NCBI RefSeq assembly: GCF_041381155.1 | Contig: NC_091143.1 | Span: 28,583,331-28,647,330 of the forward strand | Length of the DNA: 64,000 bases | DNA from: Argopecten irradians | Taxonomy: Eukaryota > Mollusca > Bivalvia > Pectinida > Pectinidae | Direction: 5' to 3' | Part shown: positions 1 through 64,000 of the stretch, piece by piece | Layout: each line of letters starts with the position of its first letter | How positions within the stretch are numbered: position 1 is the first letter of the stretch | Notes under the pieces: generated by a model | What the model was told of the DNA's origin: nothing | Seen by the model: the letters and a program-made list of their open reading frames with translations, nothing else | The model's database searches: none | Program-made: the position numbers and the translations under genes

Positions 1-757
1 AGGATGCCACCTGAATGATTAATTTGAGTGGTTTTTATTGACAGATTTGACTATCTGTATCTGTTTTGCCTCCTGTATGATTACCTTGAGGCCCTGGATG
101 GTCTTTAAAGACAGGTTTGACAGAGGTGTCACATGTATGATTACCTCAAGTGGTCTTTTTTGACAGGGTTGACTATTTTTGATAGGGTGCCACCTGCATG
201 ATTGCCTTGAATGGTCATTATAGACAGGTTTGACTGTCTTTGACAGGGTGCCACCTGTATGATTACCTTGAGTGGTCTGTATAGACAGGTTTGACTGTCT
301 TTGACAGCATGCCACTTGTATGATTATCCTGAGGCCTTGGGTGGTTTTCATAGACAGGTTTGACTGTTTTTGACAAGGTGCCACCTGTAAAATTACCTTG
401 AGTGGTCTTTATTGACAGGTTTGACTTTCTTTAACAGGGTGCCATTTATTACCATGAGGCCCTGGGTGGTCTTTATAAACAGGTTTTTCTGTCTTTAACA
501 GAATGCCACTTGTATGATTACCTTAAGGCCTTGGGTGGTCTTTTTAGACAGGTTTGACTGTCTTTGATGGGGTGAACCTGTATGATGACCTCGAATGGTT
601 TTTATTGACAGGTTTGACTTTCTTGACAGGGTGTCACCTATATGAAAACCTTGAAGCCTTGGGTGGTCTTTATAGACAGGATTGTCAGGGTGCCACCTGT
701 GCGATTACCTTGAGGCCTTTGGTGGTCTTTATAGACAGGTCTGACTATCTTTGACAG
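1..757. repeat. 60-68 bp minisatellite derived from the LigB exon acceptor
   Basis: About 11-12 imperfect head-to-tail copies run from the left window edge up to the LigB-like exon. Each unit has a pyrimidine-rich stretch ending in TTTGACAG, then GGTGCCACCTGTATGATTAC, CTTGAGGCC and a piece resembling GGTCTTTATAGACAGGTTTG. The last of these pieces also occurs dispersed elsewhere (about 27850 and 45330). The junction with the gene is seamless: the genuine exon begins with the same GGTGCCACCTGTACGATTAC, so every unit carries a copy of the 3' splice site and the first 30 or so exon bases. Short and long units differ by presence of GGCCTTGG. Small ORFs here are by-products of the repeat. Confidence 0.85.
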
Positions 758-1498
758 GGTGCCACCTGTACGATTACCTCGAGGCCTTGGAGCAGTCTGT
801 GGTGGTGATGGTCAGTGCCGATCTGGCCCACACTCATGATAAAGATGGACCATATGGCTACTCAGATGCAGCTGAACCATTTGATAAGGTAAAATATTTT
901 TAATTACATGTAGCTAATCAGAAATTGTCATAGAGAGTAAAAAAAGTGTGTAGACGATTTAATTAAGTGTTCTGTCATATGTTGTGTGTCCTTTGTACAT
1001 AAAGATACTGTTATTGTAAAGCTTACAAACAGTATTGTTTGTAATACAGGTCAGTTTTTTCTTGTATCTTTATTTTTTATCTGGGAATTATTTTCTTATG
1101 TACATGTACATAATTAATATTTTCAGTTGAAAACTATGTTATCATTCTCTGATGATCTCTTCCAAACAAATGATGAAAAAATATATGGATTACAAGATCA
1201 GACAACTCTTCAATATTGAAAGATTGAAACTATCTATCAATAGAAATCTTCATCCTCTATTTTTTTCCAGGCGTGTGGCCAGTGGGCAGAGACACTAGAC
1301 TATACCAGTCTGTTGGTCACTGCAGCAAACTATGTGGACAAAGCCCTGTCCTGTGGCTACACCGGAATGGTCATGTTGCATGGGATGTTAGAGGCTGGGA
1401 AGCTATCGTCATGGATACCAACACTGCATGCAAATTACCATCCAAGTTATTACGGAATGATGTTAGCATCTTTCTTACGTCATAATTTGTTATCCTGA
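758..1498 (+). CDS. LigB-like class III extradiol dioxygenase family protein, last two exons (5' partial)
   Basis: Two exons are visible: 758-888 (acceptor TTTGACAG, donor AAG|GTAAAA) and 1271-1498 (acceptor TTTTTTCCAG, stop TGA). They join in phase 0. The joined peptide of about 118 residues contains SADLAHTHDKDGPYGYS, AEPFD, ALSCGYTGMVMLHGML and ends ANYHPSYYGMMLA plus a short tail. This pattern (a histidine-containing DLAHTH segment, then GPYGY...FD, then a glycine-rich LHGML strand) is that of the C-terminal half of LigB-type extradiol dioxygenase-fold proteins, whose bacterial members cleave catechol rings using Fe(II). The substrate of the animal relatives is unknown to me. The N-terminal half, with the other metal ligands, lies left of the window. 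The upstream exon must end in phase 1. Family assignment is from motif memory. Confidence 0.7.
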
Positions 1499-1650
1499 TC
1501 TCTTTATATCTTTAATATAATATCGCTTCCAAACATACAGTTTGTAGCATAGTTCTGATTTTGTCTTTACATCTTACAAAGTTACCTCCCTTGTAAGTAG
1601 GTATCCATTGTGAAATAATTATTTTGTAAGTGAAATTTACATTGTTTTTT
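1499..1650. other. Downstream region of the LigB-like gene
   Basis: AT-rich sequence with no ORF. It presumably holds the 3' UTR of the LigB-like gene. I see no convincing AATAAA before the foldback repeat starts. Confidence 0.4.
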
Positions 1651-2126: not shown

Positions 2127-2140
2127 AAAAGTTTATTTTC

Positions 2141-7629: not shown

Positions 7630-10600
7630 CTAGGATTCATCGATATGCTCTATTGGTTCTGTGACCCTGTTGTAAAGGTGAAGGTTGGCAATGAGTGGGA
7701 GACCAAGGTTGATTTTGTCCGTCATGTAATGTTTCTCTACTCCATCCTTCAGACAATACTTGATAACAATTTTCAGCTCCATATTGTCCTATAAGTAGAA
7801 AATATATTACCTAAGTCAACATATAATGATTTTCTTGTAATTAAGATTAATTACGAACACTTAGTGTGGTGTGTTGTGTATTTTCTTTTTCCTAAGATGT
7901 CAAAATGTTCAGTTTTCCACCTTGTTTAATCATTTTAAAATAATGCGTACAATCAGTGTTTACAATATTTTCATCTTAGTTTAACAAAAATTCACTTTCC
8001 ATAAAAGTTATTCCTTATCAATTACAGGTACGTTTATGTGTTGAATTTTGTATCTTTAAACCAAGGACTATAGGTTTTTAAAAAGAAAAATCTTCAATTT
8101 GGCAAGTATTTAAAATGCAATTAGCAACACCAAAAATTACATATTGTTTTAGGGAATGCACATGCAAAGTTCTTTTATGTAAAAACTAAAGAATTATTGC
8201 ATTTGTAAAAATAAAGGGAAAACTCAAAGTCACCAAATTTACAAATTTGTTGCAAAGACGATGCGTGCAATATAACAGATTTGATTATCTTAAATTGTTA
8301 ACTTTTTCTAAATGCCTTACCCGTAATTTCTGAAGGTCCTGGAAAGTCGACTTGGTTATGGCCCTTGGAATCGGACTTTCAGATGTACTGCGAGTGAGAG
8401 GAGTCTCTGTCACATTTTTTATGTCTCCCATCATGGATATGCTCTAAAAGGAATACAAATTCATCATTTAGTTTTCAAGCATTTGAACTGTCAGAGTTAC
8501 TTCCCTTGAGTTACTTCATGTCATTTAACTCCATCACTGACAGAGTAAAATGAAGGGAAGTAACTCGAGGGATGTAACTCTCATGTATAAGAATGGGTTT
8601 TAAATTGTACATGAGTTGGAATCATGATTTCTGTACATTTGCTGATGCTTTCAGGTGTACGCAATTTACCTATATGTAAAGATAATTTTAGACGGTTGAA
8701 TTGTATATTCTTACATGAATCTCCAATACAGATTTACTTATTGACAACAGATCAACAAATATGTTATAATTTTGAAAAGGAAAATTTATTCAACTTGTCT
8801 TGTTCCATCTCATTTTTCTCTTTTTTGCTCTGAGGTGCCCCACACGGGATCCGGCCTAGCAATCCAGAGGTAGAGGGCTCGTGGTAATATGTCAGGGCAA
8901 CTTAACACTTGGCTACCGTGGCCTTCACTGAATATGAATGATTATGAAGTCTTAATATTAACAGTTCTAAAACATACCTTTGGCCAGTCATAAGGAAATG
9001 CTATAGACCGGTAGGTGTTGCCAGGGTTCTTGATGGCAGTGTATAAATGAATGACATTTGAGAACTCCATCTGGAATGAGAGCTCCACTGTCAAGTGTCC
9101 CAGCTCCGGTATTTTGATTTCCTGAGGTTTTGGTGTTTCTGGAAATTCAAAGTTTAGATTTAAGACAGTATGCAGCAGATCCATGTATATCAAATATTAC
9201 AAGTGCTTTTACACCTAAAAACTAGTTTAAAATCTCCTAAAACTAAAGCTGGAACAGTTCATTATAAAATTTAAGGATTAAATGAATATAAATTTTATTA
9301 TTTTTTATCAGGAGCTTTTCTCCACATCTGTGTCCGAGCAGGATAGGCCTGTGTGTGACCAGTGGTCAATATTCTATCCCTAAATAAGAGATTTACCATG
9401 AGCTTTTCTCCACATCTGTGTCCGAGCGTGATAAGCCTGTGTGTGACCAGTGGTCAGTATTCTATCTGACAGTGATCGCCTCCAGTCCAGCAAGGTTGAT
9501 TTGATCTCTGGAATCTGTATCTTACAGTGCTGGGGATCCTGTTTCCATGCTTTTGTAAACATAGAGAAATACAATAAACTGAATACATATCCTGGTACAT
9601 GTTGAAACAGTTCTGTCTTAGAAAGGCTTCCCATTGTTCTAATAATTCTTGTTAGATTTTATTTAAATTTTTAGGTTTTGTATTCAAAACAATATAATGT
9701 TTATTTGAAGCAATTAAGTCATCAAAGCTAGGTGATAAGTTAAGGAATCAAAATGTATTAAGATGTTGTGTAAACCTGTTTTATATCTAATGCATATGTC
9801 ATGTAAAACGTTAGCCTGAGATATTCTGGCCCTGACACCAGACTGTCCCTGACACCAGACTTAGGGGTCTTACTGGTCTAGGGCCAGAGTGCACTACTAC
9901 ATGAAAAGGTGGAACTCGCTGATACCTTTTGGTACTGGGCCAGGTCATCTTTTCAGACTGCTTACAAAATATTACCACACCATTAGGTGTCAATGAGTTC
10001 CACCTTTTCATGTAGTAGTGCGTTCTGGCCCTAGATCAGACATCTATCTGTCATAATGTCCAAGTCTGTTATCTTGGGCTAATAAACCGTTAACCTGCTA
10101 TATATCTAATGTACATGTATAGCAATCATACATTTTATTCTTTACAGAAGGAAAGGTTTTTTTGAAACTGGTCCTTTTGCATTTGTTAGTACCAGGTACC
10201 TTAAAGAACCTACCATCAATAACATCATTGAAGAAATAACTAACTGGCTTGTTTTGATAGATAAATTTCTGTAAATATTTCACTAATATTCCATTCTCAC
10301 GATCCTCAAAAGCAAACATTCCTTCACTCCTGCAAAAAGATTAAAAAAATATATTTTAATTACAATACAAATGAAAAACGTAAATGAGTGCATACAGGTA
10401 CTTTAATAAAGTTTGACATCCAGTAAGAAATGAAACAAAAGAGTACACCGCATGCAAATGTAAGATGGAAGAATCACCATACTCTGTGTATTTAGTGTAC
10501 GGTAGTTTAGTTTTATGAATTTCCATAGAATATCATCTAACTGCTACACAATTATTATAGAACGACTCTCTGTTTAAGCATATATGAAGTACAAATCTTG

Positions 10601-13600
10601 CTTGTTGTCAGATGTGCAACCATAGCACTGATGCTTAGTACAGTTACATACGCCTAAAAAGTACGCTGTAGTCTCCCCTTCTGATGTCGTATTCAAGCCT
10701 ATAAATAGAGATTTCTTTATTCATCTTGGCTATATAAGCAAACATCATTTAAATAAAGAATCAGATAATAAATCATGTGTTTCTTCTTCGGAAATAGTTA
10801 AACATTGACTGTTTTAAGTTTAAACATTGACTGTTTTAAGTAGTAGGGAAGTTCTAGGAACAGTTGCACTCGGCCTTCTGCCTCGAGCAATTGTTCCCTA
10901 GGCCTTCCCTGTTACCATGGTTCAATGATTGGACTGTTCCCTTAGTACCAATGAAACAATTTTATTTTGTCATGGACAAGATACATACGTGGCATAGATG
11001 GACACACAGTTGCCTTTAGGCTCGGGCATGCCTGGACTCTCCCGACCGGTCACTCCACTCGTATTTGAAGGAGGTTTGCTTGGTATTTTGTTTCTGTAAT
11101 TAATTTTCAAACACAAGACATGAACAGAGATACTCAAATCAACTCTCATCTAAGAATTTGGCTAAGGGCTGTTCTGAAAGTATTCATATGAGAGGGGCAG
11201 GAAGCAAGAGACCCCTGCCGCCATCCATGAAAATATCAAAACATTTTATTACAAGAAATACTAGTTAAATGGGACTTTAATTACTCCCACAACTCATTAA
11301 ATTTTGGGAATTGTGAATGTTAATCTTTGAGAACTTGTTTTGAAATGGAAATCATAAAATTGAACAGATGCGAAAAAAAGTTGGTTTACAGTCCAAGATG
11401 GAAACTTACTTGATTCTGCAAATATCTAGAATAAGAGTAACTAAGGCTGGATCAGCCTTTTGCATGGCCCGGAGAACGTCCTTTGAGGATATACAGTCTT
11501 CAATCGTGTAACCACTTCTAGCGTCAGGAGGCACAAAATAACTTTGTCCATTCTCCTCAAAGCCATGACCACAAAAATAGAACACACCATACACGCCCTT
11601 TCCGAGCAAATTACAAAACTCGTGAATTGCTGCGTTCATTTCCTGTTTCGTTAAGTTTAGCAATGACACAACCTTGAAATCCAGACTCCTGAAAGCTTCG
11701 GACATCTTGGCCACATCATTGCTGGGAGCCTTCAGAGTTGTTTCATTCATGTAGTCATAATTTCCTATTAATAACGCAACTTTGTCTGTGGCTGCAATAA
11801 AACATAGGTCATTTCATTAACTTATATAATCATTAATAAATCAAAGGTCCTCTTTAATTTGAAATATTAATTTGGTTCTGACATATTCTTGAACTCTAAT
11901 TATCTATATTTACAGTTTGCACTGACATGGACTCAATAACCATGCTTACTAGTATTATCATTATCAGTGCATAATGATAGTACAATATGTGCAGCTTTTC
12001 TATTGTTACAGGAATAGTCGCTGGCGTAGCAACGTTGGGTCATGACCTCACTTTTGGTGGGAACATATGAATGACTCGATTCCAATTAGCTGTTCAATCG
12101 AATTCGTTGACGATGACGGGAGGGAGAAAAAATGGGTATTTTGTTAAAAAATATGCAACTGTCGCGAGAATAAATAATTTTCATTTACATGAAAAACTGT
12201 AAATATAAGGAATAGATTTTTATTTTGTTGAGGTTATGAGGTTATAATGATAATGGAGCACGCGTAAATTATGTAACCCCGGCGAATCTTTTCTATCTAA
12301 TAATTGGTGTTTATTTACAAGACATTAATTTTGTTACTTCCTCATTGTACATTACAGAGTTACTGCTCTTGTGAGCAAATTGTTGTTACGTTTATAACCA
12401 AATGACATCACAATCAATACCTATCCACAAAAGCAGATATTTCAATAGATATACAAAGATGAAGTATATTTCATCTTTCTGTATAAACAAATTTTTTGTT
12501 GTTGAGTGTAGGTATATTACATATACATGTACATATCATCTTTTTCTTACCTCATTCACTACTGAAGACGAATTTAGACTCTTCTAAATCAAAGACTAGA
12601 CCAGTCTATTATGAAATTTAAGGGATGAATGAGTTCACAAATATCTTCCTTTTCAGATGGGCTGAAACAGAACAATAGAAACTCGAGTACATACCTCTAT
12701 ACTCTGAATTACTGAGGCTGGATGGAGACTTGATGTGCAGGCAGGCAGGATGAGAAAGGACAGACTGGCCAGTTTTTGGACATGACACAACACACTGATA
12801 AGTTCCTTGTAAATTATGGTCCTGGAGGTTGTAAAACTTGAGATCTTTCTCGTCACACGCTGTACAAAGTAAAACAAGAAAGGTTTCAAATTAAATCTGT
12901 AACAGGAGAGGAGAAAATGTATCACTAAGCTAATACCAGGGTTCGACCCAGTATCTTCGAACACCATAGCTGCATGAATCAAGCTCTAATGATTAAGCTA
13001 CCTGGTTGCTGATGATCAACCCAGTACAGTTCAGATATATTCCTTTCTTCAAGTCTTTGTCTCCAAAAAAACCACAACAACAATGTACTCCCACGTTCTT
13101 ACATATTCTTTCTATAAGTGTTCTCCCACTACTTATAGCTTGAATCACAGGTTGGCAAGATAACCAATTTTGTGACTAGAGGAGAAAATGAAGTGGCCAA
13201 ACTGGGTTTAAACCCAGGACCTCAGAACACTAAGCTGGATGCTCTTACTAACAATTGAGCTGTCTGAGATCATTGCTGACAAATAAATAGTTTTTTCGTT
13301 ATAATTAATTTTCTCTTTGTTACAGGCTTTCTAATTGGTCCATTCATTTTTTTCATTCCACGATGAAAAAAATCCAAGAATGGCGCGGAATTCCCAATGT
13401 TATCATGACGTCACAATAGAAACATTGACGTTGTGTATTGATTTGGAAAAAATAATCCCTTGGAAAAAATCAATGGAATCGTACGTGTAAATGTATTTCA
13501 TTTTATAAAGTAGCCTGGGAAATTAATTATAAGTATTGAAGTCACTATTTTTTAATTTCATTGGGGTATGAAATAAATTGTGTTTGCAAACTTTTGTGAG

Positions 13601-16600
13601 AATCCGCTACGCGGATTCACACAGTTTGACTTCAATGCTTAAGTATATCATCCTAATGTGATTCATGCATGATTTTAATTCTTGGTGACCACAAATCTAA
13701 ATTCAAAATATTTCTGGGCAAAAGTAAAAAAAAAAGAATTTAATGAGATACTAGCAGAACAAAGTCATATAGAGATTAAACAGATAAGTGTTTTTCACTT
13801 TCAAAAGAATAAGAAGCATGTAGCATAATCTTGACATTCCGACTACTATGTATATGAGTCACAATTACCCCACGGTTGTTGGTCTTTGTACCACTTATAG
13901 GTGAGAGGATATCGACATCTCGCCTCCACAGAAAATAAACAGCTGCCTCCCACTTCCACGCTTGATGTCTTTGGGTTCAGTATAATATCAATGCCTTTGA
14001 AAGTTAAAAAAGTATTTCATCGACATGTACCGGTACAAACTTTCAGGCACATACAATAGAATTGAAGAACATGTATGTACAGGTAAATTTGTGCTTGTTT
14101 TTTTATTCTTTTGTGTGGGTGTGGTTTTTATCAATGAAATTTTAATAACAAAATAAAGAATCATTTTTAATAGCAATTTTTTTTTTTTTGAATAACAAAA
14201 TAAAGAATGATTTTTGATAACAAAAAAAAATGAAAATAAAAATGAATATATGTATGTGTTAAAGTAATTCATCAAGTGATTTAATCAAATGTAATGTTAA
14301 GCAAAAGTCACAACTAATTGTGGCAGACATTTAACTTTATTTAGGAATGCATGGAAGACAGATTTACTTAGTTAGATATCAACCATTATCATAAAAGCAA
14401 CGGATACATATATAACTTTATTAACAAAATTAATACATTTAGATATTTCCTATTTAAAGACTTACCTTCACTATGGTAAGCTGCAATAAAAACAATAAAT
14501 TTGTCATAACAATTACATAGCAATTTCTTATAATATAGTGAAGTACTAAAGATTATAATTTAGGTACAAACAACTTCTATATTTACTAGAGAAGTGATGA
14601 AATACTAGTATTACAAGAGGCCCAGAGGGCCTGTATCGCTCACCTGGTTTGTAATGCCAAGTAATGTTCTGAATACAGGTTCATTGTTTCTTTTCTGAAG
14701 GAATTTTAATATTAAAAACCTCTAAATCCCCTATTGGGCCCCACCCCTCCCGCCCCCAGGGGTCAGAGCCAAAATTTATACAAGTTCTGTTCCCTTCCCC
14801 AAGGATGTTTATGGCCAAATTTGGTCACAATCCAAGCAAAACTCTAGGACAAGAAGTGATTTATAGGATTTACCTCTATTTCCCCTATTGGGCCCCACCC
14901 AGGTGGCCAGAGTCAAAATTTATACAAGTTCTGTTCCCCTTCCCCCAAAGATGTTTGTGGCCAAATTTGGTTACAATCTATGCCGAACTCTATGACTAGT
15001 AGCGATTTAAAGGATTTACCTCTATTTCCCCTATTGGGCCCCGCCCCTCCTGCCCCGGGGGTCAGAGCCAAAATTTATACAAGTTCTGTTCCCCTCCCCC
15101 AAGGATGTTTGTGGCCAAATTTGGTTACAATCCATTCAGAAATGACTAGTACGATTTGTTCCCCTCCTGCCCGGGGACCAGACAAAATTTATTTTGATGT
15201 TTGTGGCCAAATTGTTCTTCATTCACTCAGAATAGGATTAAGATTTCCTCTATTTCCCCTATTCCCCTCTGCCCCTGGGGATCAGAGCCAAATATACAAG
15301 CGTTCCCTTCCCAGGTTTTTTACAATCATGTAGAGCTCTAGACATAGAGATTTAAAGGATTTACCTCTATTTCCCCTACAGAGTCCAAAATTTATACAGC
15401 TAATTTTGGTTACAATCCATGCAGAACTCTAGGACAAGTAAAGATTGACCTCTATTACCCCATGGCCCCGCCCTCCTGCCCTGGGGACAAGCCAAATTAT
15501 ACAAGTCTTTTCCCCCCCCAAGGATGTTTGTGGTCAATTGTTACAATGAACTCTAGGACAATAGCGTTTATAGGATTTACCCTATTTCCCCTATTGGGCC
15601 GCCCCTCTGCCCCGGGGGGACGAGCCAAATTTAACCTGTCCCCCCCCAAGAGGTTTGACCTATGACTATTCGTTTAGTACAGACGACAACGACGAGACGA
15701 CGCCCGCGCCATGACATACACCGGTATATCCGGAGTACCCGTAAAAATTCAGATATTCGGAGTACCCGAAGAAAAATCACCAACAAACATTCAGATTCTG
15801 GCAGCTGCCCCACATGGAATTCAAACTTGCGGCCCAGAGGTGGAGGGCTTGTTTGATTACCATTATGGCCTTCATATCAATCAAGTTATCGAAAGTAAGA
15901 CTATTCTTACCATTCTTACCACATTAAATGAATACATGTACATTGATCAAAGCTTTATTTCCCATAAATCTAGTGCTGCAATATTGATAACACAGAGAGG
16001 CACATTGTTATAATAATTATTCTTACAGGAATACTGTAGAATCATTTTTACTATGATTATAGATATTACCATATATAAAAAGAGCAACAAATCCTTGGCA
16101 TCGTGATTGATATTCTCTCTCTCCATGTTACGAAGTAATCAGCCCTTGCAAGATGGTGCTGATTACATCAGTTTTTCAGCAAAATAAGACACAACATTTG
16201 CTCACAAACTACAAATGTCATCATTGATACCTCCCTGCAAGGGCAGATAACTCTATTGCAAGGGCAGATAACTCTAAAATATGCAAAGACAGAATAGATG
16301 TACAGTGAAACATATCTAAGTGACCACCTCTGTATGAAGACAACCTGTTGATTAAGACCACTTTCTTGTGGTTACAATAATTGATCATTTAAAACACAAT
16401 TTGACCTGTGTATATAGACTACTTTACTATGAAGATCACTTTTCTCTTGTCCCTTTGGTGGTCTTTATATCTATGTTTGACCACAGTCAGTACAAATCAG
16501 CTACGTATAAATAAACATATACATCATAATATGTGCAGGTAGAATAGTGACGTAGCAGTATAAATTGCTACATCATCATTATCCTCTAGTGTGTCGTCCG

Positions 16601-19600
16601 CTATGGCAGAACCCCAAAAGGCTGCGAAGGAACTGTTTATTTCACATATATTGGTTATTTGTTACTGACGTAAGTTGTACATAAACTGCACATAACAGAG
16701 CATGTTGTACTTACCTCGGATAGTCGCCTCTGGGTTCACTTCCACTGTAACGTCTCTACTGTGAACTTTACCAAACTGGTTCCTGATCACACAGGTATAT
16801 GTCCCCTGGTGCTTCAAGGTGACATCAGGAAACTAGACAAAGAGAAATCAAAGTACTAAAAGTACTGAAGGAGGTGTTAGTCTCTGTGATCAGGAAACTA
16901 GACAAAGAGAAATCAAAGGACTGAAAGCACTGCAGGAGGTGTAATCTTAGTGCATCAGGAAAACAGGCAACGAGAGAAAATGGTTACATAAAAAATTGCT
17001 ATGTTTTAAGTTGGAGATAAGACTCAAACTGTACAATATAATAAATTCCTCCACTAATTCAAAATATATATTTGTATTGACAAGTTGGATCTTTAGGATC
17101 TTTGTGTATTGATACTAAATCTGCAAGACGTAAATACATGTATACCTCTGCCACCATATAAAATCAGGACAAGACAGAACAGGACATGTCATGCATGAGT
17201 AAAAATACATGATTATATGCAACCATCTTTGTTGTTGGAGCATAAAATTGAAGAATGGTGCATGGTTGTTGCATATAATCCTGTGTTCTGAATGATAAAA
17301 TATTCACATTTTTATATCAAGATATAAAGCACATATTTCAATTGGTTTCCTCTTATTTTATACTTTCCACTTACTACTAAATTTCCTGAATCCTTGTTGC
17401 TAGCAATCACTTCTCCATTCTTTAGCCATTCGTATGTGAGAGGTTTATGACCAATTCCGGCACAAGAGAGTTCTACTCTGTCCTGTACGTTAACACTTAC
17501 ATCATCTGGCTGGGTCAAAACTTGTGGCAACACAGCTGTTACACAAATAAATAACTGTAATACAATTCTTATATTGGTAATCATTTTCATTTCAATACCT
17601 TCATGAATCTATTAATCTTGTTTTTATGTACTTCTTCCCATAAAATGAAGGAGATTAAGAGCATTACACATGAGCTGTGGCTATGAAAAATGAAAATCAT
17701 AAAACAAATTCAATAATTTACACCTACACTGCCATGCCTTTAGGTGAACTGATTGAAATAGCATTTTTTATGATTAGTAATTTTTATCGTATGAATACAA
17801 GCCAAAAATTATATTAATTTTGTTTATTGCCATGACCCTGTGCCAGAGCACTGGGTTTAAATATAACACTGAACACTCACGTTTACTTGGCTCACGTTCG
17901 TAAAAAGCTTCCTTGGAAGGATTTTTAGTTTCTGTGGCTGTCAAAGGTCTGTAGTGAATTTTGACTGTGGATGGCTCAGTGAACTTACAGTGATCACTGC
18001 TTCCTCCATTGCATAAACGACAACAATATGTACCACAGTCTCCTGGACTGTAAATAGATAATAGCAAAAGATATTTTTTTTTACATAAACTATTCTGTCT
18101 TTACACATAATTATATATAAATATTGCGGAGTAATCTGCCCATGTTGACAAAAATTGTGTTATTTTCTCGAAGAAAAATACAAATGCATGATGTACCAAT
18201 CATAAAAATCAATATCTACCTGCAAGGGTAGTTAACTAGCAAGGGCAGATAACTCTACAACACACAAATTCAAAATTGTCATCTTTGTGAACAAAATTTC
18301 TTTTACTTCATACCAATCATCCAAACATTTCCTTTAAAATTTTACTAATTAAAATGAATTATTAAACACCAGGGTAACATCATTTCAAATCATGTTCCCT
18401 AAAACTACAGTAAACTTTCACTTTTTTTAACTTGTGTATAATAAGCTCCATCATATATTAGTACACATTTTTAGCATCAAAAGTGCTAGATTTAAAATTA
18501 GAGGACCGCTAAAACATTAGCATTTATTGTAAGTATACAGATAAAACAAACCAGGTTTGACTGATCCTAAGGGTGGAATGAATAGCTCCTTCAATCTCGT
18601 CGTATTCTGAGCCGTGGAGTTTAAACCACTGATATCGAGGGTAAGGAAATCCTACCGCCTCCACATGTAGTTCTAATTGGTCCCCCTCATCCAGTTCTTT
18701 CATCTCTGCAGGCTGACGGATAATGTGAATTTCCTCTGAGTTCACATGGAAAAAATACAACGTTATTGCATATGTGTTCTTATTTTAAGATGTACAAAGC
18801 ATAACTTAAAATGTTTTAAACCAAAGGACTCTTGTCAATATGGAAGATCGTGAATAAACTCAGACTACACAGTTATTTATATGTGAGACAAGGGAGTATA
18901 TAGCTGTCCATCAATTAAATTTGTCTCTAGCTAATTAGTGGGGCTATGTTGTTAATTACTGCAGGTATTATTGCCAATACATAAGATTTAAAATAAATCT
19001 AATGTAATATAAATGCTTAAAACATGGTTTTATAAATGTATATCATTTACATTAATTAATTGATAGGTTTGCCTGTTCTACAAAATTCAGTGGTTTTTTA
19101 ATAGATGCATAAAGACTTTTCAAGGAAATGGTTTCAGTTATGAAGACATGCGTATAGGAAATAGGTTTTTGACATTTCAGATTAAAAGTATTCTTTTAAA
19201 TTAACAGGATTTGTTTCTATGAGATAAAACCTCTTAAATGTTTTTCTAGATAATTTCTGAAATATTTGGAAGATATTTGTTAATATATCTGTAATTAATA
19301 CATGCTTCATTAAGACAATGAAAATAACCAAATAGTTTTTCATGTATTTTTATGGAGAAACTACAGGATTATCTCCCCTGGCCTTTTTGAAACCTTATCA
19401 ATTACCTAAAGATGCTATTTGACTAGTACATTTTCTTGTCCTGACTTGATATAAAATCACTAACTAGATATTTTATTGATATTTACCATAGGGTTTCAAA
19501 TCTATCAGAAGGTTTTCCAATCGGAGTTGATCCAATACATAAATAAGTTCTTGAACAATCATGCCACGAGCTCCAAGTTCTGAGATCAGTCTGTTGGTAG

Positions 19601-20321
19601 GACTGCCTTTTCCAAACACAGAGCATCCAAATTTGCTCTCAATTTCAGACTGACTGCAAAACAAAACAAAACTTATACTTTAAGTAACTAATAAACTTTT
19701 ATTTCAAAATAAAAAGAATTCAAATTATATTTCAATAATAAGACTTAGTGTAATTAGTCACTGGTAATTTTTAGAATGGTTAATTAGAATCACTTCTTAA
19801 TTAATAATACTTACTAAATTTTCCTTTTAAACATATTATAAAAAAGATCTAAGAAGAATTTTTTTAAATGTATATTCTGTTCAAGATTGAAGGCTGGGGA
19901 AGTGTAAAACCTGTGATCTGCAATGAACTTTAAGAATTTGATGGTGACCACTTGCAAGTCATTGTCTTTTCTGATCAGTATTAAAATTCAATTTAGACCA
20001 TGAGAAACCTTAAAATTTCTGAATGCCTAAGATCTTTCATGATATTGAATCATTAAGCTAAAGAATATTGAAGAAACTGGAACCTGATCATGACATATTA
20101 GTACACTTGTAAGGAATTCATGAATATATATGTACATATAAAACCAACCTGAATTCATAATCATCCCTCAGACTTGATGCAATTTTCAAAAAGGCACGCC
20201 AACCACATGTCTCTGGATTGTAGTCCAAACTTTTTTCAATTTCTTGTGTAATCTTCGCTGGTAGTTGTGATATATTTCTCCGGTTCATTGAAACACCAGT
20301 CCCTCTTTGCAAGTGATCCAT
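7630..20321 (-). CDS. MALT1: MALT1-type paracaspase, 17 coding exons, 839 aa
   Basis: Paracaspase: a cytosolic signalling protease and scaffold that acts with BCL10-like partners upstream of NF-kB in animals. Exons, 5' to 3' on the minus strand: 20149-20321, 19487-19653, 18552-18735, 17881-18047, 17375-17535, 16715-16832, 14466-14480, 13869-13994, 12695-12859, 11410-11791, 10989-11093, 10654-10698, 10214-10329, 9397-9549, 8978-9138, 8321-8443, 7630-7788. Phases agree throughout and sum to 840 codons including TAG. An in-frame TAA lies just upstream of the start ATG. Domains: death domain about 1-113, Ig-like 114-225, Ig-like 231-323, a 5-residue microexon insert, Ig-like 329-425, caspase-like 426-641, then a C-terminal Ig-like region. 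The catalytic dyad is His501 (FCGHGF) and Cys550 (LDICR), 49 residues apart as in human MALT1 (His415/Cys464). The tail PIEHID (832-837) fits the TRAF6-binding pattern PxExx(acidic/aromatic). Vertebrate MALT1 has two Ig domains before the protease; here there are three. Exon 12 needs a GC donor. Confidence 0.92.
8493..8582. repeat. Short foldback in the last MALT1 introns
   Basis: AGAGTTACTTCCCTTGAG and its near complement CTCGAGGGATGTAACTCT, with GGAAGTAACT inside, form an imperfect hairpin. It is intronic, between exons 15 and 16 of MALT1. Confidence 0.5.
8836..8932 (-). mobile_element. tRNA-derived SINE fragment, family B
   Basis: Read on the minus strand it has TAGCCAAGTGTTAAG (A-box-like, as in serine or leucine tRNAs) and ends GATCCCGTGTGGGGCAC. 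Related copies lie at 15795-15875 and 58593-58690. It sits in a MALT1 intron. Confidence 0.45.
9312..9379 (-). repeat. Intronic copy of the 3' part of MALT1 exon 14
   Basis: About 68 bp match exon bases 9400-9467 with few differences, offset 88 bp downstream in the transcript. Shared words include GACCACTGGTCACACACAGG and GGACACAGATGTGGAG (minus strand). The copy stays open through ATG-TGG-AGA-AAA before reaching a stop, but has lost the CATG|GTAAAT donor, so it should not be spliced as an exon. It is a two-copy tandem duplication spanning the donor junction. Confidence 0.8.
9878..10034. mobile_element. 157-bp MITE with ~40-bp inverted repeats
   Basis: The left end CTAGGGCCAGAGTGCACTAC and the right end GTAGTAGTGCGTTCTGGCCC plus TAG are inverted copies over about 40 bp with two mismatches. 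A central spacer of some 75 bp lacks any ORF of note. It lies in the MALT1 intron between exons 13 and 14. Confidence 0.75.
12899..13022 (-). mobile_element. tRNA-derived SINE, family A (degenerate)
   Basis: Starts AACAGGAGAGGAGAAAATG on the plus strand. The complement has a tRNA-like head with GGTAGCTTAATCATTAGAGC (A box) and GGGTCGAACCC (B box). Same architecture as 27239-27489. Intronic in MALT1, between exons 8 and 9. Confidence 0.55.
13171..13285 (-). mobile_element. tRNA-derived SINE, family A (degenerate)
   Basis: Contains GAGGAGAAAATGAAGTGGCC followed by AAACTGGGTTTAAACCCAGG and, on the complement, an AGCTCAATTGTTAGTAAGAG A-box relic. The B box has lost its GTTCGA core, so it is older than the copy at 27239. 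Confidence 0.5.
14614..15660. repeat. Hairpin-headed composite element with ~150-bp monomers (decayed)
   Basis: It starts CAAGAGGCCCAGAGGGCCTG then TATCGCTCACCTGG, the same end as the element at 2141. Tandem monomers of about 147-153 bp follow, with AAGGATGTTTGTGGCCAAAT and TCAGAGCCAAAATTTATACA and a C-rich segment. Successive copies become shorter and more decayed to the right, and the opposite hairpin end is missing. It lies in the MALT1 intron between exons 6 and 7. Confidence 0.75.
15795..15875 (-). mobile_element. tRNA-derived SINE fragment, family B
   Basis: On the minus strand it reads CCCTCCACCTCTGGGCCGCA then AGTTTGAATTCCATGTGGGG, a B-box-like segment with the same end as the copy at 8836. 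Intronic in MALT1. Confidence 0.4.
16823..16985 (-). repeat. 65-bp tandem triplication across the MALT1 exon 6 acceptor
   Basis: ATCAGGAAACTAGACAAAGA (plus strand) starts at 16824, recurs at 16889 and, diverged, at 16954, a regular 65-bp spacing. The first copy contains the genuine exon 6 acceptor (minus strand CTTTGTCTAG|TTTCCTGAT). The others repeat the acceptor and first ten exon bases inside the intron, giving decoy 3' splice sites. Confidence 0.8.
17211..17280. repeat. Short foldback
   Basis: GATTATATGCAACCAT at the left and ATGGTTGTTGCATATAATC at the right are inverted copies, giving a strong hairpin in a MALT1 intron. Confidence 0.5.
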
Positions 20322-41400: not shown

Positions 41401-43899
41401 CCATTTGATGGTAAGTATTGTGTTGAATATCTACCCATACCAACCTGTATCGAGAGGCCATCACCCCACCTCCACCATTTGATGGTAATTGAATTACAGA
41501 TCCCAGGGGTTACAATCACTTCATACACCCCTGCAAAATTGAAAGGCTTTGTGTGCAACCACAGCTGAGAAGGTAGTTTGATGTACATCAAAAAATTGAA
41601 CAACAGTACACTGTGGTTGACTGTGTGGCTTTGAAGTTTGAAGTTTCTCTCTAACAAGTCTCTGCAGGCCTGTGATTGGTTAATTTTTTTTCCAGAACTA
41701 CCTACAATTTTGCTATGAAATATTTCAGGGGAAGATATAATGACAGTGATAGTAACAGTAGTAAGAGTAATGAAGATGAAAGTTAATACGCCACTGTCTT
41801 AATAAAGAAATTGATAATATCATTCTTATTTCAGCAATCATGACTTGATCAGTCTTTTACGATACAAAACTTCTGTACTCTGGGATTGGGAAGTGTCTGC
41901 CATCTGATATGATCCTAATGGTATATGTAATGCCTTTAGTTAGAATATGCTATTAGAGATTTTTGAATACTTAACTGTTTCCGTTTGTGAAGAAAGAGCA
42001 TTGAAATGAGAATTGAGAATTTTGTCATATTTTCCTCCAGACCCGCCAACGTACCATGAGAGTGTAGGTGGCGCTGTCAATATCTGGGATGATGAAGACG
42101 ATGACCCCAGGTACAATATGGGCGACTTGACCTACACACCTATGTACACCTACGTTTACAACTATAGACCTCCACCAGCCTATTCTGAGGTAAGCTATTC
42201 TCTCACCTGTATTAATCAGTCATCTAGCGCTGTCAGGGTTTGTATAATAATATTTAGTACCTAGTATGTAAATATGGATTTCATCACTATCATAAAACAT
42301 CTCAAAAACAATGAACATAAAAATGTTGTCACCATAAAAGTTGTTAAAACAAAACATAACAGAATGATGAGAATCACCATTCAGTGAAAACTGATTTCGT
42401 TTGAGTAGGCAGAAGTCTGCTGCAATCTAAGATAACTTTTGAAACGTTGTCGCCTACAGATAGGAAAACCATCATTGATACCATCATATTAATAACTGAT
42501 TCAAATGGTCAATGGAAACTTAATATTTACGATTTAATAGTCTCTAAATTGGATTTTGGCCACAATCTTTGTCTATTTACCTTAAGTTACTATATAATAA
42601 TCTTTAAAAGTTTTGGGTAAAGAAAAAAGAATTTAATTTAACAATATTTTTACCAACAGAGATCATTTTTGGATATATTAAAATGTAACTTGTCTAAACT
42701 TGATGTCTTCTGGAACAGCATATTTGGTCGGTATAGACAGATTTCCAGATTATACAAGTTTTAAGTATAAATTAAGAAGGAAAATGTCATATAGTTACGC
42801 TTGAATCCAAACTACACAGAGCTGGTTTTGACAAGTAATACTGTATTTTAGCATTGTCACATTCTTTAAAGGTAGGTTTCGCTCAACCAAATAAATATTT
42901 ATTTTTTAAAATCCGATAAATGGAAGAAAAGGTGAAAAAACATATTAAAATTACCTCAATTTAATTTCTTTATGCGTATGAGATTGAACAAATGTGTCTT
43001 GAATACAAAATTGAAGGAAATCCTTGATTTATTACGATCGTCAGGCTGACAGGATTTATGCAAATGAAGCTGCAATGGATTGTGTTGTCGAAGTTTCGCG
43101 TATGCGCATTGTTACGCAGTAAAAGTAAACAAAATGGCTGAACGAATGCGTGTGAGAAAAAAACATGTACATGTGTATCAGAATCGGCATCAAGGAGTAG
43201 GAAACTAGAATGGAATCTGTAGCATCCTAGGATATCTCTAGAGAACGAAACTCAGAGATGACATGTAGCAATAGAAGAAAGAGAAGCCACATCTCAAGTG
43301 GAACTTGCCCGGATTCTGTTGGGTTGTGTTGCACGTAGTGAGTTAAATTTCAACACATATGCCAGCGCACATACAGCGACAGACTAACTTCATATATGTT
43401 TGGTGTACTAAGCTAGCGAGTGTATGTCAGTAACTTGAAGTGTTATAGATTATATGACATGTAGGGTAAAAACAATCCATCATACCTCGATTTGTTGTTG
43501 TTGTTTTTTATTTGCTAAACATGCCATGGCAAGACTGTCACTTCTGTCTAACATTTTGTTGCACGCTTCCGTTTGTTGATGCGGCCTCGATTTGGAAAAA
43601 AATATGTCATGTTCAATGTAAAGCTTTACTTTGCTCTATTTTAAGGGGTGTATTTTCCTGGTCAAGCTAGGCAACTGACCACCCATATTGTTCGCTGTAT
43701 GCATTGAAAATGATCTGAAGATTATATCTATGAACACTCGTAAACTTTATATTTCATTGGGCGAAACCTACCTTTAAATGATATTGTCAGAAAGCACTCG
43801 GGATTGTGATAAGTTTGTTATGGTTGTCTGCAGGAGGATCCTAATCCAGTTCAGATCTGTGAAGTTCCCACTACAAGATCAGCAGGAGAAGATGTATGA
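26451..43899 (+). CDS. Alpha-arrestin (ARRDC2/3/4 type), 9 exons, 418 aa
   Basis: Arrestin-domain adaptor that links membrane cargo to NEDD4-family ubiquitin ligases through PPxY motifs. Exons: 26451-26709, 28482-28554, 28763-28910, 29381-29483, 29954-30094, 30589-30704, 37759-37960, 42041-42189, 43834-43899. Phases agree at every junction (total 1257 nt with TGA); human ARRDC3 is about 414 aa. Arrestin N domain: KVVVELKGDMKMRSLRIF, TSFEGKHGSIRYWLKAE. The linker TLCCWLCTSGPIS and then ESIAVSAEFDNHSSR and YQTQAFFASGK open the C domain, which ends VALHIPGAYN and LPIVIGTVPF. PPxY motifs: PPPY 333-336, PPTY 349-352, PPAY 392-395. The end PPPAYSEEDPNP closely follows vertebrate ARRDC2/3/4 tails. 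Which of the three vertebrate paralogues it matches cannot be told, so no symbol is given. Exon 7 ends in the first unit of a 3.6-kb array of copied donors, so longer isoforms are possible. Confidence 0.93.
27239..27489 (-). mobile_element. tRNA-derived SINE, family A (best-preserved copy)
   Basis: On the minus strand it has GACCAGTTAGCTCAGTCAGT then AGAGCATCCGGCT (A box) and GGGTTCGAATCCCAGTCTGG (B box), like a real tRNA. A duplicated CTATAGC stretch in the middle and a non-tRNA body ending near CAGGAAAGGAGAAAATGA show that it is a SINE. It lies in arrestin intron 1. Confidence 0.65.
27840..28035. repeat. Dispersed repeat with CTTTATAGACAGG motif
   Basis: AACCTGTCTATAAAGACCAC and later GTGGTCTTTATACACAGGTT face each other, a loose inverted pair. 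Relatives appear near 16310-16480 and 45330-45400, and part of this motif is inside the 1-757 array unit. Intronic. Confidence 0.45.
28985..29400 (+). repeat. ~37-bp minisatellite sharing the exon 4 acceptor
   Basis: About nine units of roughly 37 bp with ACATGTGTTCAGAGCATTAT and CTCCCCTTCTTTGGTAG fill the 3' part of arrestin intron 3. Exon 4 (from 29381) starts with the same ACATGTGTTCAGAGCA after TTTTTCAG, so the units carry the first 16 exon bases preceded by a TAG, that is, decoy acceptors. Left-hand units are more diverged. Confidence 0.8.
31195..31890. repeat. Hairpin-capped composite element with ~151-bp monomers
   Basis: It starts with the perfect hairpin GAGCCCACCATCATCAGATG then GTGGGCT, followed by a GTCC-rich segment (CCGTTCCTCCGTCCGTTAGC). 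About four monomers of some 151 bp then follow, with GCATATTGCATTTTGGGACC and AGATGGCCACGAGGCAGCCA. No ORF of a transposition protein. Lies in arrestin intron 6. Confidence 0.75.
31891..32640. other. Intron 6 spacer
   Basis: No coding exon is seen. A dispersed motif with CAGTCGGGACTGTCTAATCG and CCCTGTCTTATGTGAC occurs at the left; a related inverted piece is near 37370-37450 on the other side of the intron. Confidence 0.35.
32641..33780. repeat. Hairpin-capped composite element with ~170-bp monomers
   Basis: Starts CACCCGCCAACTTCGTTGGC then GGGGATATAC (hairpin), with a run of GTCC words right inside it. Five or more monomers of about 170 bp follow, marked by GTTTCCGGAGCATAACTCTA, TTATGGTCTAGTAGTGCC and AACCATGGAAACATTGCTGA. 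The right end CCATTGGCGGGGGATCTGAA echoes the left hairpin. Arrestin intron 6. Confidence 0.75.
33781..35434. other. Intron 6 spacer
   Basis: AT-rich, with T-runs around 34045-34080 and no exon. Small ORFs such as 34134-34376 have no recognisable family. Confidence 0.35.
35435..37245. repeat. Hairpin-capped composite element with about nine 146-bp monomers
   Basis: Starts AGGTCATCTGACCCGAAGGG then TCAGGATGACC (hairpin), with GTGCGCC and CGTCCGTC runs. Monomers of 146-147 bp follow (GATCCTGACATGG at 35603, 35749, 35895 and 36042), containing CCAAGATGGCCGCCACAGCC and GAACTTCTTCTCAAGTTCTA. Ends with two copies of AGGCCCTTGGGCCTCTTGTT (about 37100 and 37235). It is the same family as 20961-22724, in the opposite orientation. 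The 63-69 aa minus-strand ORFs starting MSGSFHASFS or MSGPCQDHF are monomers, not genes. Arrestin intron 6. Confidence 0.82.
37889..41488 (+). repeat. 75-bp array copied from the 3' end of arrestin exon 7, donor included
   Basis: About 45-48 units (3.6 kb divided by 75 bp) begin inside exon 7 and run into intron 7. Each unit has GTGTGGAATATCTACCCATA, a CTGTATCGAGAGACCATCAC segment and CCACCTCCACCATTTGATG|GTAAGT or |GTAAGA. The first unit is the genuine exon end. Most units are 75 bp (25 codons, with VEYLPIP, YRETIT and PPPPFD); some are 74 or 76 bp, which shifts frame. Continuous reading from exon 7 stays open for two more units, shifts in the third and stops at about 38181. PPPY and PPQY in the first two units become mostly PALY or PPLY later. 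Long ORFs on both strands here are array by-products. Confidence 0.9.
42865..43778. mobile_element. ~0.9-kb terminal-inverted-repeat element
   Basis: Left end TTTAAAGGTAGGTTTCGCTC and right end GGGCGAAACCTACCTTTAAA are inverted copies differing by one base over about 22. No transposase ORF. It fills most of arrestin intron 8. Confidence 0.75.
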
Positions 43900-53027: not shown

Positions 53028-53641
53028 CTATTCGGATGTTTTAAATCTTTGCAGGTCTTTGTCGGACTTGATTTCTTCAGGTGTCAGTTCATATTTTTCA
53101 GAGATGTCATAGACTCCACAATCCTCAATGACAACTTTCTTAGTGGATGTAGCGGTGTCCTTTATTACTGGGAGGTCTCCCACTTTTCCCACGACATCCT
53201 GAATAGCAGATTTAAAACATATACATTTAAATAGGAGGAAATGTGAAAATATATTTTTAATACAAAATGGTGAAATAATTTCTACCGACGAAACAATATC
53301 ATAATTCTCAACCACGAAAGAAACTAACCATAATATGAAACATTTATTTAACACTATATGATGAAATAATTTCTACCGACGACATGTTTCCATAGTTCAA
53401 ATAAGAAAGTACTCACAAAAATTTGTTTTATTATATAACACTTTTTTTAAAGTTTATACATTGGAAATAGAATATCGACAACATTTCGAATTCTGTTGAT
53501 TCTTTGTACACCAGTGGTGATTCGAACCCAGATATTGAATTTTCATTAAAAAATATTTTATTTAATCAAAAGATTAAATTTGGATCGGACAGCAGGCAAA
53601 GCCTTTATATGGCTATACGCCCTATTCATATGATTACATGC

Positions 53642-53672
<31 letters not shown>

Positions 53673-56600
53673 ATTAAGCAGATTTTGATTTAAAGGATGC
53701 GATAAAAAACATTTGACATTTTGGCATTCAATTTGACATTCATTATTATTTTTTACGGAAAAGGAAGATAGCATGTTCATTTCTATTTTTTTAAAATCTA
53801 CACTAAAATCAGAAATAGTATTAAATTGGTTACGTCATAGTAAACATCTGTATTACTAGAAAGGATGCCTATTTCATATATATGTTTGATATCTACTTTC
53901 AAGAATAAAGGAAATCAAACATCTTAGTGAACAATTGTTTCCATTATTCCATGTTACCATAGATACAAAAGCTGTAGTAGTTGTGCACTGCCATTTTAAG
54001 CCTCTTGTTGGCTTTACTTACCATTCCACTGATAACTTTTCCGAAAACAACGTGTTTACCATCCAGCCACCTGGCCTTATTCAGAATAATGTAGAACTGA
54101 GAGCTGTTCGAGTCTGGTCCCGTATTAGCCATGGCAACGTAACCAGCAGCTTGGTGACTCAGTTCAAAATTTTCGTCCACAAACTTAGTACCATATATAC
54201 TTTCACCTGTAAAATAAATTTGATTACTTACTAACCTAAACTTAAAACTATAAAATTAGACAGTATTGCAGCAAAAATTAATTTCTTTGAATTGTGTAAT
54301 AAATATGCTGATCTGAAAATGAACTGACTTATTTTCTTCTTCCGATTTGAATGAATAAATTGAAAAGAATACTTAAACCCAATGCACTCTTTATCGATAT
54401 AAGTGTATAATTTTCCGATTTGAAGAAAGATATTATTACCAAAACTAAATCGTATACCTCGTTTTATCGATATATAGTTCAAAGCAGATTTTCCTGTAAG
54501 CCAGGCAAACGCATACTCGAGGCTCTATAGGTTACTAACAAAGTCATAACAAAACTGAAGCCAACAGAAGACACAGGAAATTTGGTACAATGATGAACAT
54601 CAAAAGAATGAAATAATGATACACTGTGGTTGACTGTGTGACTTTGGGCGTCACTCTCTCTGTAATCTTCAAATGAAGTCTCTGCATTGTTCAGTATTTT
54701 TTCCAAAACCGCCTCCAGTTTTACTATTCGCTTGGATTATTAGCAAGTTGATTGAACTTAACGTCCTATCAGCAACTAAGGTTATGGACGTTCTCTCATG
54801 TTTGAAGCTTGTATGTGATTGCATGTACGTTTCGGGAGGCTGTGGTGTAATTGTGTTGTGCCTCATGATTGTAGAGAAACTCGAATAATAAACCTATACA
54901 GACACATTACCCAGACCTGTACGTACTATGAATTTGTCTCACAGTTGACACGAATCACCAAACATCTCATAAGAATTCGATTGTCACACAGCGAGCTCGA
55001 ATTCACATTTGTTGAAAAAGAAAACAAATGCATTCATTTATCCTTGATAATTATGACGTTATGCTCACGAACATATGACGTCACAATCAATACATTTTCG
55101 TAGAAAATCCTAAGCTACTTACCGCCAGTGCCGTCTTTATGGACGACGTCACCCATCTGTATGACGAAATCTTTGACTATTCTATGAATTTTTGTTCCTT
55201 TATAATGTAGGTCTTTTCGCTGAGGGAGGGAAACATAGAATATAACCATTTTGTCAATGACGTGTTATTTTTCATATAAAAATTATGGGAAAACAGTTTA
55301 CAATATGGAGTCCGACATAATTAAAATTGTTTATGTTAACATGGATATTTTTGCATGTGTATATTTTTATCAGCACTTATGTGTTTAGGAGTTGATATAT
55401 TTGCATAATACAGAGTTAGCTCCCTTACGGGTAGGATTGTTGTACGTCATTATTTTGTGAGCACAATTCACGTCGTTTTCTGCGAAAAATATGATATTAA
55501 GCTTACAAACACATGACGGCACAATCAATACCTATATGCTTGATGCTTCAAATAAATGTACATAGGTAGTTTTAATACTTACATTTGGACGGGTTACTTT
55601 TTTGGCGAGAGAGAGGAAATTAAGGGCCGTCATTGGTACTACTTCACCGAACAGGCCGACGACAATTTTGCCACGATAATCTTCTCCATTTTCATAGTCG
55701 AAAATCTTTATATCAAACCAAACTTCGTCTGTGACAACGTGTGGTACCTAATAAAATAAACATAATTCAATTGAACTACGTGTCTTATTTTACAACATCT
55801 ATATCCTGTGACAAAATAAAGTACAATTGAACCATAATAGCGCTGTTCGGAGTACAACATGGGGAATCCAAGGAATACCACACTTCTTCTGTTCAGAGGA
55901 CAACATGGGAAATCAATATAAAAATATGAAGTAAATATAAATCTGTATATAAATCTGTATAAATATCTGTATATAAATCTGTATATATATCTGTATATAA
56001 ATCTGTATATATATCTGTATATCGTTATACATGTACAAATAAAAGAAGTGTTTCCCATTAATACTATTGTAACAGGAGTGGACCCGGGACCTCCGAACAC
56101 TGCCAAGGAGCTACATGTACCTGGTCACCAGTCCAATCCCGCCATACTATAATGATTTTCATTTTAAATTAATTGGGGTGAGGTTTTTTTTCACTGAATT
56201 TAAATGATTTCAGAACAGCAGATGTTTGGTGTCTATAAATAGTTCATGAGCATAAAATCTTTGACGAAACATTCCATTTTATGCGATATGTAAAATGGAA
56301 CAATTATGAATTGTAAGTAACTGTCTATAAACATTTTCTACAGACTGGAAAGTATGGTTTTTGTAATGGTATTGTTACTCAACAAGTGATAAATTTATGT
56401 GTGACGTTCCAAAGACTAGTATGATTTGTACCTCGTCACCTTCAATGTGTAAGGTGTAAAAGTGTACGAGTTGTCCTTTATGATAGCTATAGTCGAAGAT
56501 CGATGTTCAATGTCGATTTCGGCACCGAGTATAAAATACAATGCTAAAACATATTGTAATGGGCCAAAATGACTTAGTCACTATTCTTTGTTTAATACCT

Positions 56601-62382: not shown

Positions 62383-63999
62383 TTAATTGATATCTATTTT
62401 TACAGGGACGATTGGTACCGACTCTCTGCTGTCCTTTTTGAAGCTTCTTTTATACATTTTCTGTCTCATTATATTTTCCCTATCGGAAAACCTACTGCTA
62501 TCGTGCCTTGAGATACCGTTGGTTATTCCACCACGGAAAGCAAGTGTTCCTTTTTTCCACTTTCTGTGAATATTTTCTAGTCTATCTTCGAAAATCTGTT
62601 GGAGAATAGGCACATCGTTATTCTCGAAATTTCGTTTCTGTAGAACACGTGTCTTGCGACCAAATGTCCTGACGGTACCGCGCGGACTTTGCGGTAGTGA
62701 CGGTAACTCGTCGTACTGTTCCGATCCCTGAGACATGATGTCATCGTCCCCGTCATAGTCTGGCGGAAGTTCGTCGTAATCCGGTGCAGGTTCCATGCGT
62801 TGAAGTCTTTGCGCTTCACTGACAACAAAACGCACGAAATCTTCCTCAGTCTGTACTTTTTGGAACCAGTCGATCCGGGTACTGGACATGAGATGTAGGA
62901 ATGTCCCATACCTGTGGACAAACATACTGACAAACTGGAGGGAGATAGCGATGGCAAATATGGAGAGGAACGTAAGAGACAGAGGTTCGTATTTGCTGAT
63001 AATGTAGAACTTTTTCAGCTCGTCTTCCATGGACTGAAGCTGTAATGTAATGATCGTCCACAAGAAATTGATCATGAAGTAAATAAATACTACATTGTTC
63101 TTCAAGGAAATTAAATCCTCTTTGATTTTCTGTTTATGTGATTGATCCTCGTCGAGTGGATGCAAATATTTCTTAATCATGAACCTCCAGAAGCCAGCCT
63201 CTTCTTCTGACACGTGTTTTACTACGCCATCCCCTAGATATTCTAGTCCGAGCCAGTATGGATTTTCGGGATCTGCCTCCCAACCGGTCATATCCTCAAC
63301 AGGGGGCGTAGGTACTCTTTTGACTTCAGGCTGTCGGCTTTGTTTCGACACAGAACGTTGGATGGGTTCGTCAGTTTGAATTGCCACGGAACACGTCTGT
63401 ACATTTTCCTGACCTCCAAATAACCTTTTCAATGCACTTGTTAGATCTATGATAAGAGGGGCAAGACCAAGTCTGTTGAAGAAGCTTTTCCTGTCTTTTT
63501 TCTTTCGTTTTTCCTCCTGTATCCTTTGCAATTCTTCCTGTTCTTCTTTCGATAATTTCTTTGGAGTTTCTCTGGTACCCCACGAAACGTTATTGACATT
63601 GCAAAGGTAGTATACAGTCAGAAGGATGAAGGTAGACGGTACCGTAATGAAATACAGGGCACCGTACACCAAACAAAAGAACTCCTGCGGATGCAATATT
63701 CCTGCTATCATGAAAATAGATGCCAAACCAGTCAAGAACACAACATTCGGACTGCCGAAATTCTCGGTGACAATACTTATAACGGTTCCGACCGTCGCTA
63801 CCATCATGATGAGAGAATACAGGGCGGTGATGACAGCGGCCGCGAAGATTTGTACATCGTTCTTTAGTTTTAGACAAATTCCAAGATAGATGACAACCGG
63901 TAACAGGGACAGAATATACGACTCCCAGATGCCAAGTTTCAGAACAGAGTGATATGACCCTGTTATCATCAAGATGACAGTAGAGGGCGCTAAGATCGT
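62383..63999 (-). CDS. Chitin synthase, C-terminal part (3' terminal exon, 5' cut by window edge)
   Basis: Membrane enzyme that polymerises UDP-GlcNAc into chitin; in molluscs it serves shell, radula and gut lining. The frame is open from the window edge (TILAPSTVILM before the first Met at 63972) to the TAA at 62383, about 538 residues in one exon. Numbered from that Met, several hydrophobic segments fill 1-125 (LTGLASIFMIAGILHPQEFF, ALYFITVPSTF). Next comes the conserved SWGTRE at 130-135, then a charged coiled-coil-like KEEQEELQRIQEEKRKKKDR segment. YWLGLEYLGDG and GFWRFMIKKYLHPLD follow, then two more membrane segments (VVFIYFMINFLWTIITLQL; LTFLSIFAIAISLQFVSMFV). The acidic then basic tail contains ELPPDYDGDDD, a PPxY motif. 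The catalytic domain (EDR, QRRRW) is outside the window. SWGTRE and the following layout are typical of animal chitin synthases. Confidence 0.92.
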   Translation of the reverse strand, partial: TILAPSTVILMITGSYHSVLKLGIWESYILSLLPVVIYLGICLKLKNDVQIFAAAVITALYSLIMMVATVGTVISIVTENFGSPNVVFLTGLASIFMIAGILHPQEFFCLVYGALYFITVPSTFILLTVYYLCNVNNVSWGTRETPKKLSKEEQEELQRIQEEKRKKKDRKSFFNRLGLAPLIIDLTSALKRLFGGQENVQTCSVAIQTDEPIQRSVSKQSRQPEVKRVPTPPVEDMTGWEADPENPYWLGLEYLGDGVVKHVSEEEAGFWRFMIKKYLHPLDEDQSHKQKIKEDLISLKNNVVFIYFMINFLWTIITLQLQSMEDELKKFYIISKYEPLSLTFLSIFAIAISLQFVSMFVHRYGTFLHLMSSTRIDWFQKVQTEEDFVRFVVSEAQRLQRMEPAPDYDELPPDYDGDDDIMSQGSEQYDELPSLPQSPRGTVRTFGRKTRVLQKRNFENNDVPILQQIFEDRLENIHRKWKKGTLAFRGGITNGISRHDSSRFSDRENIMRQKMYKRSFKKDSRESVPIVPVKIDIN

Positions 64000-64000
64000 G

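Follow-up and report, generated by a model that had tools for sequence, protein, structure and literature searches.

Our analysis of a 64,000-nucleotide stretch of the Argopecten irradians genome (contig NC_091143.1, positions 28,583,331 to 28,647,330 of the forward strand; the window) reveals that tandem repeats whose units span exon–intron junctions occur in three neighbouring genes, a LigB-like gene, MALT1 and an alpha-arrestin gene, and recur at junctions elsewhere in the genome. These mirage-type minisatellites very probably represent background tandem duplication that is tolerated since the copies land in the intron. The reading is carried by the anatomy of the repeats, by their recurrence, by a frequency at junctions that shows no excess in our sample, and by splice dinucleotides that are not clearly better conserved than the remainder of the unit. 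The analysis covers one assembly, three gene families beyond the window, hand-called junctions, and genomic sequence only.

Five splice edges named in an earlier note on this DNA were placed in rebuilt gene models, and the two arrestin exons concerned are given with them:

758, plus strand: LigB-like acceptor, placed by splice consensus, frame, and upstream exons found in L039
9397, minus strand: MALT1 exon 13 donor (exon end), placed by gapless alignment to PDB MALT1
16832, minus strand: MALT1 exon 6 acceptor (exon start), placed by frame and lying within Ig-domain matches
29381, plus strand: arrestin exon 4 acceptor (exon start), placed by gapless alignment to TXNIP
29381 to 29483, plus strand: arrestin exon 4, the first 16 bases of which recur in the intron 3 array
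37759 to 37960, plus strand: arrestin exon 7, placed by frame, its first residues aligning to TXNIP
37960, plus strand: arrestin exon 7 donor (exon end), which rests on frame

MALT1 was rebuilt on the minus strand with 16 exons (7630–20288, a possible microexon included), and eight exons of the alpha-arrestin gene were found (26451–42189); both spliced models keep the reading frame throughout. MALT1 residues 410–796 align to PDB MALT1 and arrestin residues 3–301 to TXNIP; neither alignment is gapped where it crosses the junction concerned, the exon 13/14 border (9397) and the exon 3/4 border (29381), respectively. The MALT1 exon 5/6 border (residue 274) lies inside the reported Ig-domain matches, as judged from match ranges, not alignments. 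A start of MALT1 exon 13 at 9549 is in frame, as is one at 9546. The possible MALT1 microexon, 15 bases at 14466–14480, has consensus splice sites, and the reading frame of the protein holds whether it is included or skipped. The final two exons of the LigB-like gene, 758–888 and 1271–1498 on the plus strand, were placed by splice sites and frame; the last has no match in a Pfam search of the window open reading frames. The name LigB-like is that of the earlier note and presumably fits, as it agrees with the motifs. This animal gene spans 1–1498 together with L039:6600–7700.

Tandem Repeats Finder (TRF) detects arrays at all five places, as follows:

1 to 790, plus strand: LigB acceptor-edge array, merged from TRF rows 1–783 (about 61 bp) and to 790
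9304 to 9466, minus strand: MALT1 exon 13 donor duplication, 88 bp, two copies, by TRF, with 92% identity in self-alignment
16823 to 16975, minus strand: MALT1 exon 6 acceptor duplication, 65 bp, by TRF (16823–16962) and self-alignment
28947 to 29336, plus strand: arrestin intron 3 arrays, 37–38 bp units, by TRF (29016–29336, 37 bp) with arrays merged
37892 to 41488, plus strand: arrestin exon 7 donor array, 74–75 bp units plus a 53-bp stretch, by TRF

The TRF arrays and gene models confirm both the positions of the five edges and the unit lengths that the earlier note had given. Its statement that the tandem units carry the splice site holds for four edges, which lie inside TRF arrays; at 29381 the duplicate is recognised by similarity only. 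Specifically, the arrestin intron 3 array ends 44 bases before the exon, its units bear TAG|ACATGTGTTCAGAGCA as does the acceptor edge, and the link is the common stretch AG|ACATGTGTTCAGAGCA, with a similarity score of 37 that is detected at a threshold of 36, missed at 40, and to be compared with a shuffled maximum of 27.

The LigB acceptor array enters the exon by 33 bases and comprises 14 copies in L039 and the window, counting the true edge. The MALT1 exon 6 array holds about 10 exonic bases, and the intronic copy of the MALT1 exon 13 donor edge is without its GT. The arrestin arrays fill 83% of intron 3 and 86% of intron 7, the latter with 47 full or partial copies of the exon 7 donor edge, counting the true one. 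A second copy of this donor, at 38035, is in frame, and its use would add 25 amino acids. In every window case the unit carries one intron edge, and the opposite edge is a separate sequence.

All five claimed cases are duplicated edges, and the count falls short by one. L039, the 10 kb upstream of the window, holds the preceding LigB exon, which ends ...GAATTAG|GTAAAC; its donor, at the far end of the LigB intron that closes at 757, is a sixth duplicated edge, by similarity. This intron of 3,059 bases contains 27 copies of the donor edge (L039 7661–9759, true edge counted), one copy of the acceptor edge sits within the donor array, and recognised copies of both borders make up 67% of the intron.

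The arrays belong to a repeat-rich landscape: TRF arrays cover 21% of all window bases and 30% of intron bases. A 28-bp unit, GATACAATAGCCAAGAGATCTGATATGT, occurs in two arrays between MALT1 and arrestin, at 20565–20954 and 22723–24460, the second being the larger with about 62 copies. A repeat of 146–158 bp, seemingly one family (...CCCCTTCCCCCAAGGATGTTTGTGGCC...), is arrayed at 14755–15134 and at L039:3789–5485. A cyclophilin gene was rebuilt with four exons (53028–55747), and cyclophilin and caspase domains were the only names returned by Pfam for nine window open reading frames.

The earlier note named slippage or repair biased to splice junctions among the plausible causes of these arrays. 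Of the 55 window junctions, 4 have a TRF array reaching 5 bases or more to each side, versus 31.9% of intron-interior points lying inside arrays. Array coverage is 7% at 0–40 bases from a junction and 9–14% at 40–300 bases. With the arrays rotated against the genes, the means are 11.4 spanned junctions and 4.8 arrays that span one, where the window shows 4 of each; in a placement test, 2 of the nine short genic arrays cross a junction, with 1.5 expected. A copy test, which asks whether the 50 bases around a point recur within 450 bases, is positive at its loosest setting for 6 of 58 window junctions, against 7–14% in introns and 3–4 of 58 points inside exons.

To extend the comparison beyond the window, we assembled 190 junctions from myosin, kinase and P450 family matches across the same genome, window excluded, calling each by hand from the end of homology plus GT or AG and dropping ambiguous or non-junction ends. 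The myosin sample comprises 77 of 82 listed matches (143 of 154 ends called); the P450 sample, 15 of 100 matches, hand-picked outside the C7 cluster (28 of 30 ends called); and the kinase sample, 142 matches, for which 30 loci were fetched, 25 were shown, and 19 ends were called in 13 loci, many of the best kinase matches being single-exon. The copy test is positive at 5/190 junctions (2.6%; L044, L061, L062, L066 and L080), at 6–11 of 182–184 points lying 30–300 bases into the intron in the same sample (3–6%), and in exons at 1/190 points 25 bases inside and 0/190 at 40 bases. The exact 95% interval for 5/190, 0.9–6.0%, therefore allows equality with the intron rate and does not allow a strong junction excess. 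TRF arrays span 3/190 junctions (L050, L066 and L080); L050 is short, fails the copy test and is counted apart, giving 6/190 if included. TRF coverage across the 190 junctions is 1.6% at 0–20 intron bases and 4.5–6.4% at 40–400, and on the exon side it is 0.4–1.2% over the final 60 bases. Copy scores range from 37 to 100 versus a shuffled maximum of 27, so the existence of the copies is beyond chance; a preference for junctions is not thereby shown.

Among the sampled loci, the myosin junction L080 has the donor together with some 38 exonic bases repeated in a 54-bp unit, at least 8 times up to where the stretch ends; GTGAGT is present in every complete copy, the units are in frame, and the exon-attached first of the eight donor patterns was taken as the junction. 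An 88-bp array near the L058 donor was not counted, as it begins about 24 bases inside the intron. In L076 (421–1232), the domain positions covered by two adjacent myosin exons coincide, a pattern that alternative duplicated exons would be expected to show.

Two claims of the earlier note part company here. A recurrent process with unrelated units stands, given the differing units in the window and 5/190 junctions elsewhere (6 with L050). A bias towards junctions is not borne out: the test of array overlap against displaced positions, run on the window and the 190-junction sample, yields no excess at this sample size by interior points, rotation, two placements or the copy test at several settings, with a single null marginal.

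These observations fit a scheme in which introns throughout this genome would acquire short tandem duplications, with units from tens of bp up to a few hundred, through ordinary slippage, template switching or unequal exchange. A duplicated segment that caught an exon edge would leave the gene a complete exon whose splice site still works, and the additional copy would drop into the intron together with its exonic bases. We infer that the intronic copy is nearly neutral, expanding or decaying like any intronic minisatellite, and that splicing would use the exon-attached site; duplications wholly within an exon would break the protein and be removed. Tolerated background duplication predicts the pattern seen: copies at junctions should roughly match those in the neighbouring intron in frequency or fall below them, exon interiors should be nearly free of copies, exonic overlaps should stay within tens of bases, and splice sites should drift freely in the copies.

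Wherever it could be judged, the direction of copying should be from exon to intron. The copied MALT1 exonic bases encode a conserved 'WRKAHE', aligned with human MALT1, and those in L066 and L080 encode myosin motor-domain residues inside the family match, so the same direction should hold for these copies. The opposite order, an intronic minisatellite into which the exon edge later slid, has a very small probability: the arrestin exon 4 array, mostly intronic and stopping 44 bases short of the exon, would suit it, but edges 29381 and 9397 align without gaps to distant homologues and the L066 and L080 edges lie inside the myosin family match, so the exonic part should predate the array at all four.

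Several observations weigh against tolerated background duplication. First, when the 14 genic arrays are placed under the rule that no array may swallow an exon, 2.1 junction-spanning arrays are expected, with P(≥4) = 0.145 and P(≥5) = 0.045; this mild surplus in the window is the result most favourable to a junction excess. Second, window exons are not clean, points 25 and 40 bases inside being copied in 2–4 of 58. Third, the window is richer than the other sample (6/58 versus 5/190 junctions, Fisher P = 0.022), in a comparison where the window was chosen for its arrays and its introns are also richer in repeats. Fourth, the splice dinucleotide is near-invariant in the arrestin, L066 and L080 arrays, though these copies are uniform throughout.

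A reading in which introns of this lineage often grow from their edges, border copies supplying a large share of some introns' length and the edge rate being raised in certain regions such as the window, is unlikely. Quite improbable, too, is a mutation bias in which co-transcriptional splicing, R-loops or nicks would make exon edges duplication hot spots; six events among three neighbouring genes and the mild surplus under the no-swallowing null speak for such a bias, but no junction peak appears in the window or in the 190 other junctions.

Conservation within arrays, measured as the majority share per column, bears on selection for redundant splice sites, one of the causes proposed in the earlier note, under which the extra copies would protect splicing. 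GT or AG is indeed kept in many copies: the arrestin donor copies have GT at 1.00/0.98 versus a column mean of 0.955 (43/47 read GTAAGT or GTAAGA), and the L066 copies have AG at 1.00 versus 0.975 (25/25 read TTAGATGT). The LigB acceptor copies have AG at 0.85/0.92 versus 0.877, and the LigB donor copies GT at 0.50/1.00 versus 0.898, the G being kept in 11 of the 24 copies that reach that position and absent in 13. Selection for redundancy is highly improbable: the dinucleotide columns do not clearly stand out, more than half of those LigB donor copies lack the G, the sole MALT1 exon 13 copy lacks GT, and an extra site, if used, would insert into or frameshift coding sequence (in frame for the arrestin donor copy at 38035 and for the L080 units).

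Tandem repeats at exon borders have precedents. Mirages reportedly go back to a lancelet Adh paper in Nucleic Acids Research in 2002 (30:2871). In later reports, lancelet mirages are described in Adh3, the globins BflGb6 and BflGb9, troponin C and PGBD5 (PMC3087553, PMC3902484), the second adding PGBD5 and citing troponin C. As described there, they resemble the present repeats in that either boundary is affected, units measure tens to 160 bp, and many copies keep AG or GT; they differ in that normal splicing and variable length are reported for the Adh3 and globin cases, whereas ours are known from the sequence of one assembly, and in that a per-junction rate is estimated here. Here, the unit spans the exon–intron boundary at 4/55 window junctions by TRF, at 29381 and the LigB donor by similarity, and at L050, L066 and L080 elsewhere; both donors (9397, 37960, LigB upstream, L080) and acceptors (758, 16832, 29381, L066) are involved; and many, not all, copies keep AG or GT (in L066, all 25 keep AG).

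Human duplicated genes in segmental duplications likewise have internal tandem repeats at exon–intron boundaries, with minisatellite arrays that lengthen introns; these were found via recent paralogues and defined by splicing-altering copy-number variation, whereas ours is single-assembly anatomy (PMC2812944). The suggestion of the earlier note that no such class had been described is thus overtaken by the lancelet and human reports, and the boundary repeats here can be assigned to a class already described. The model of Rogers derives intron gain from tandem duplication of AG/GT (PMC2891723); it shares a tandemly duplicated segment bearing splice signals and differs in that our unit carries a single edge of an intron already present and makes that intron longer, and in no window case does duplicated exonic AG/GT form both ends of a new intron. 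Minisatellites of C. elegans (PMC4039745), an abalone intron minisatellite (PMC6905558) and earthworm metallothionein repeats (PMC12783039) are intronic, with no statement in the accessible portions that they span a junction. Among the listed papers, judged mainly by titles and abstract openings, we found no report of junction-spanning repeats in molluscs, and the name mirage only in lancelet reports.

What is new here is the per-junction rate in this genome, together with introns built largely of border copies. Clustered junction repeats in one window, taken without an intron-interior comparison, are no proof of a junction-directed process. About 3% of the sampled junctions carry a mirage; if this rate holds, boundary duplication would be a common source of intronic sequence, and also of decoy splice sites beside the true ones. 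Arrays with up to 47 near-identical sites constitute a natural test of spliceosome choice.
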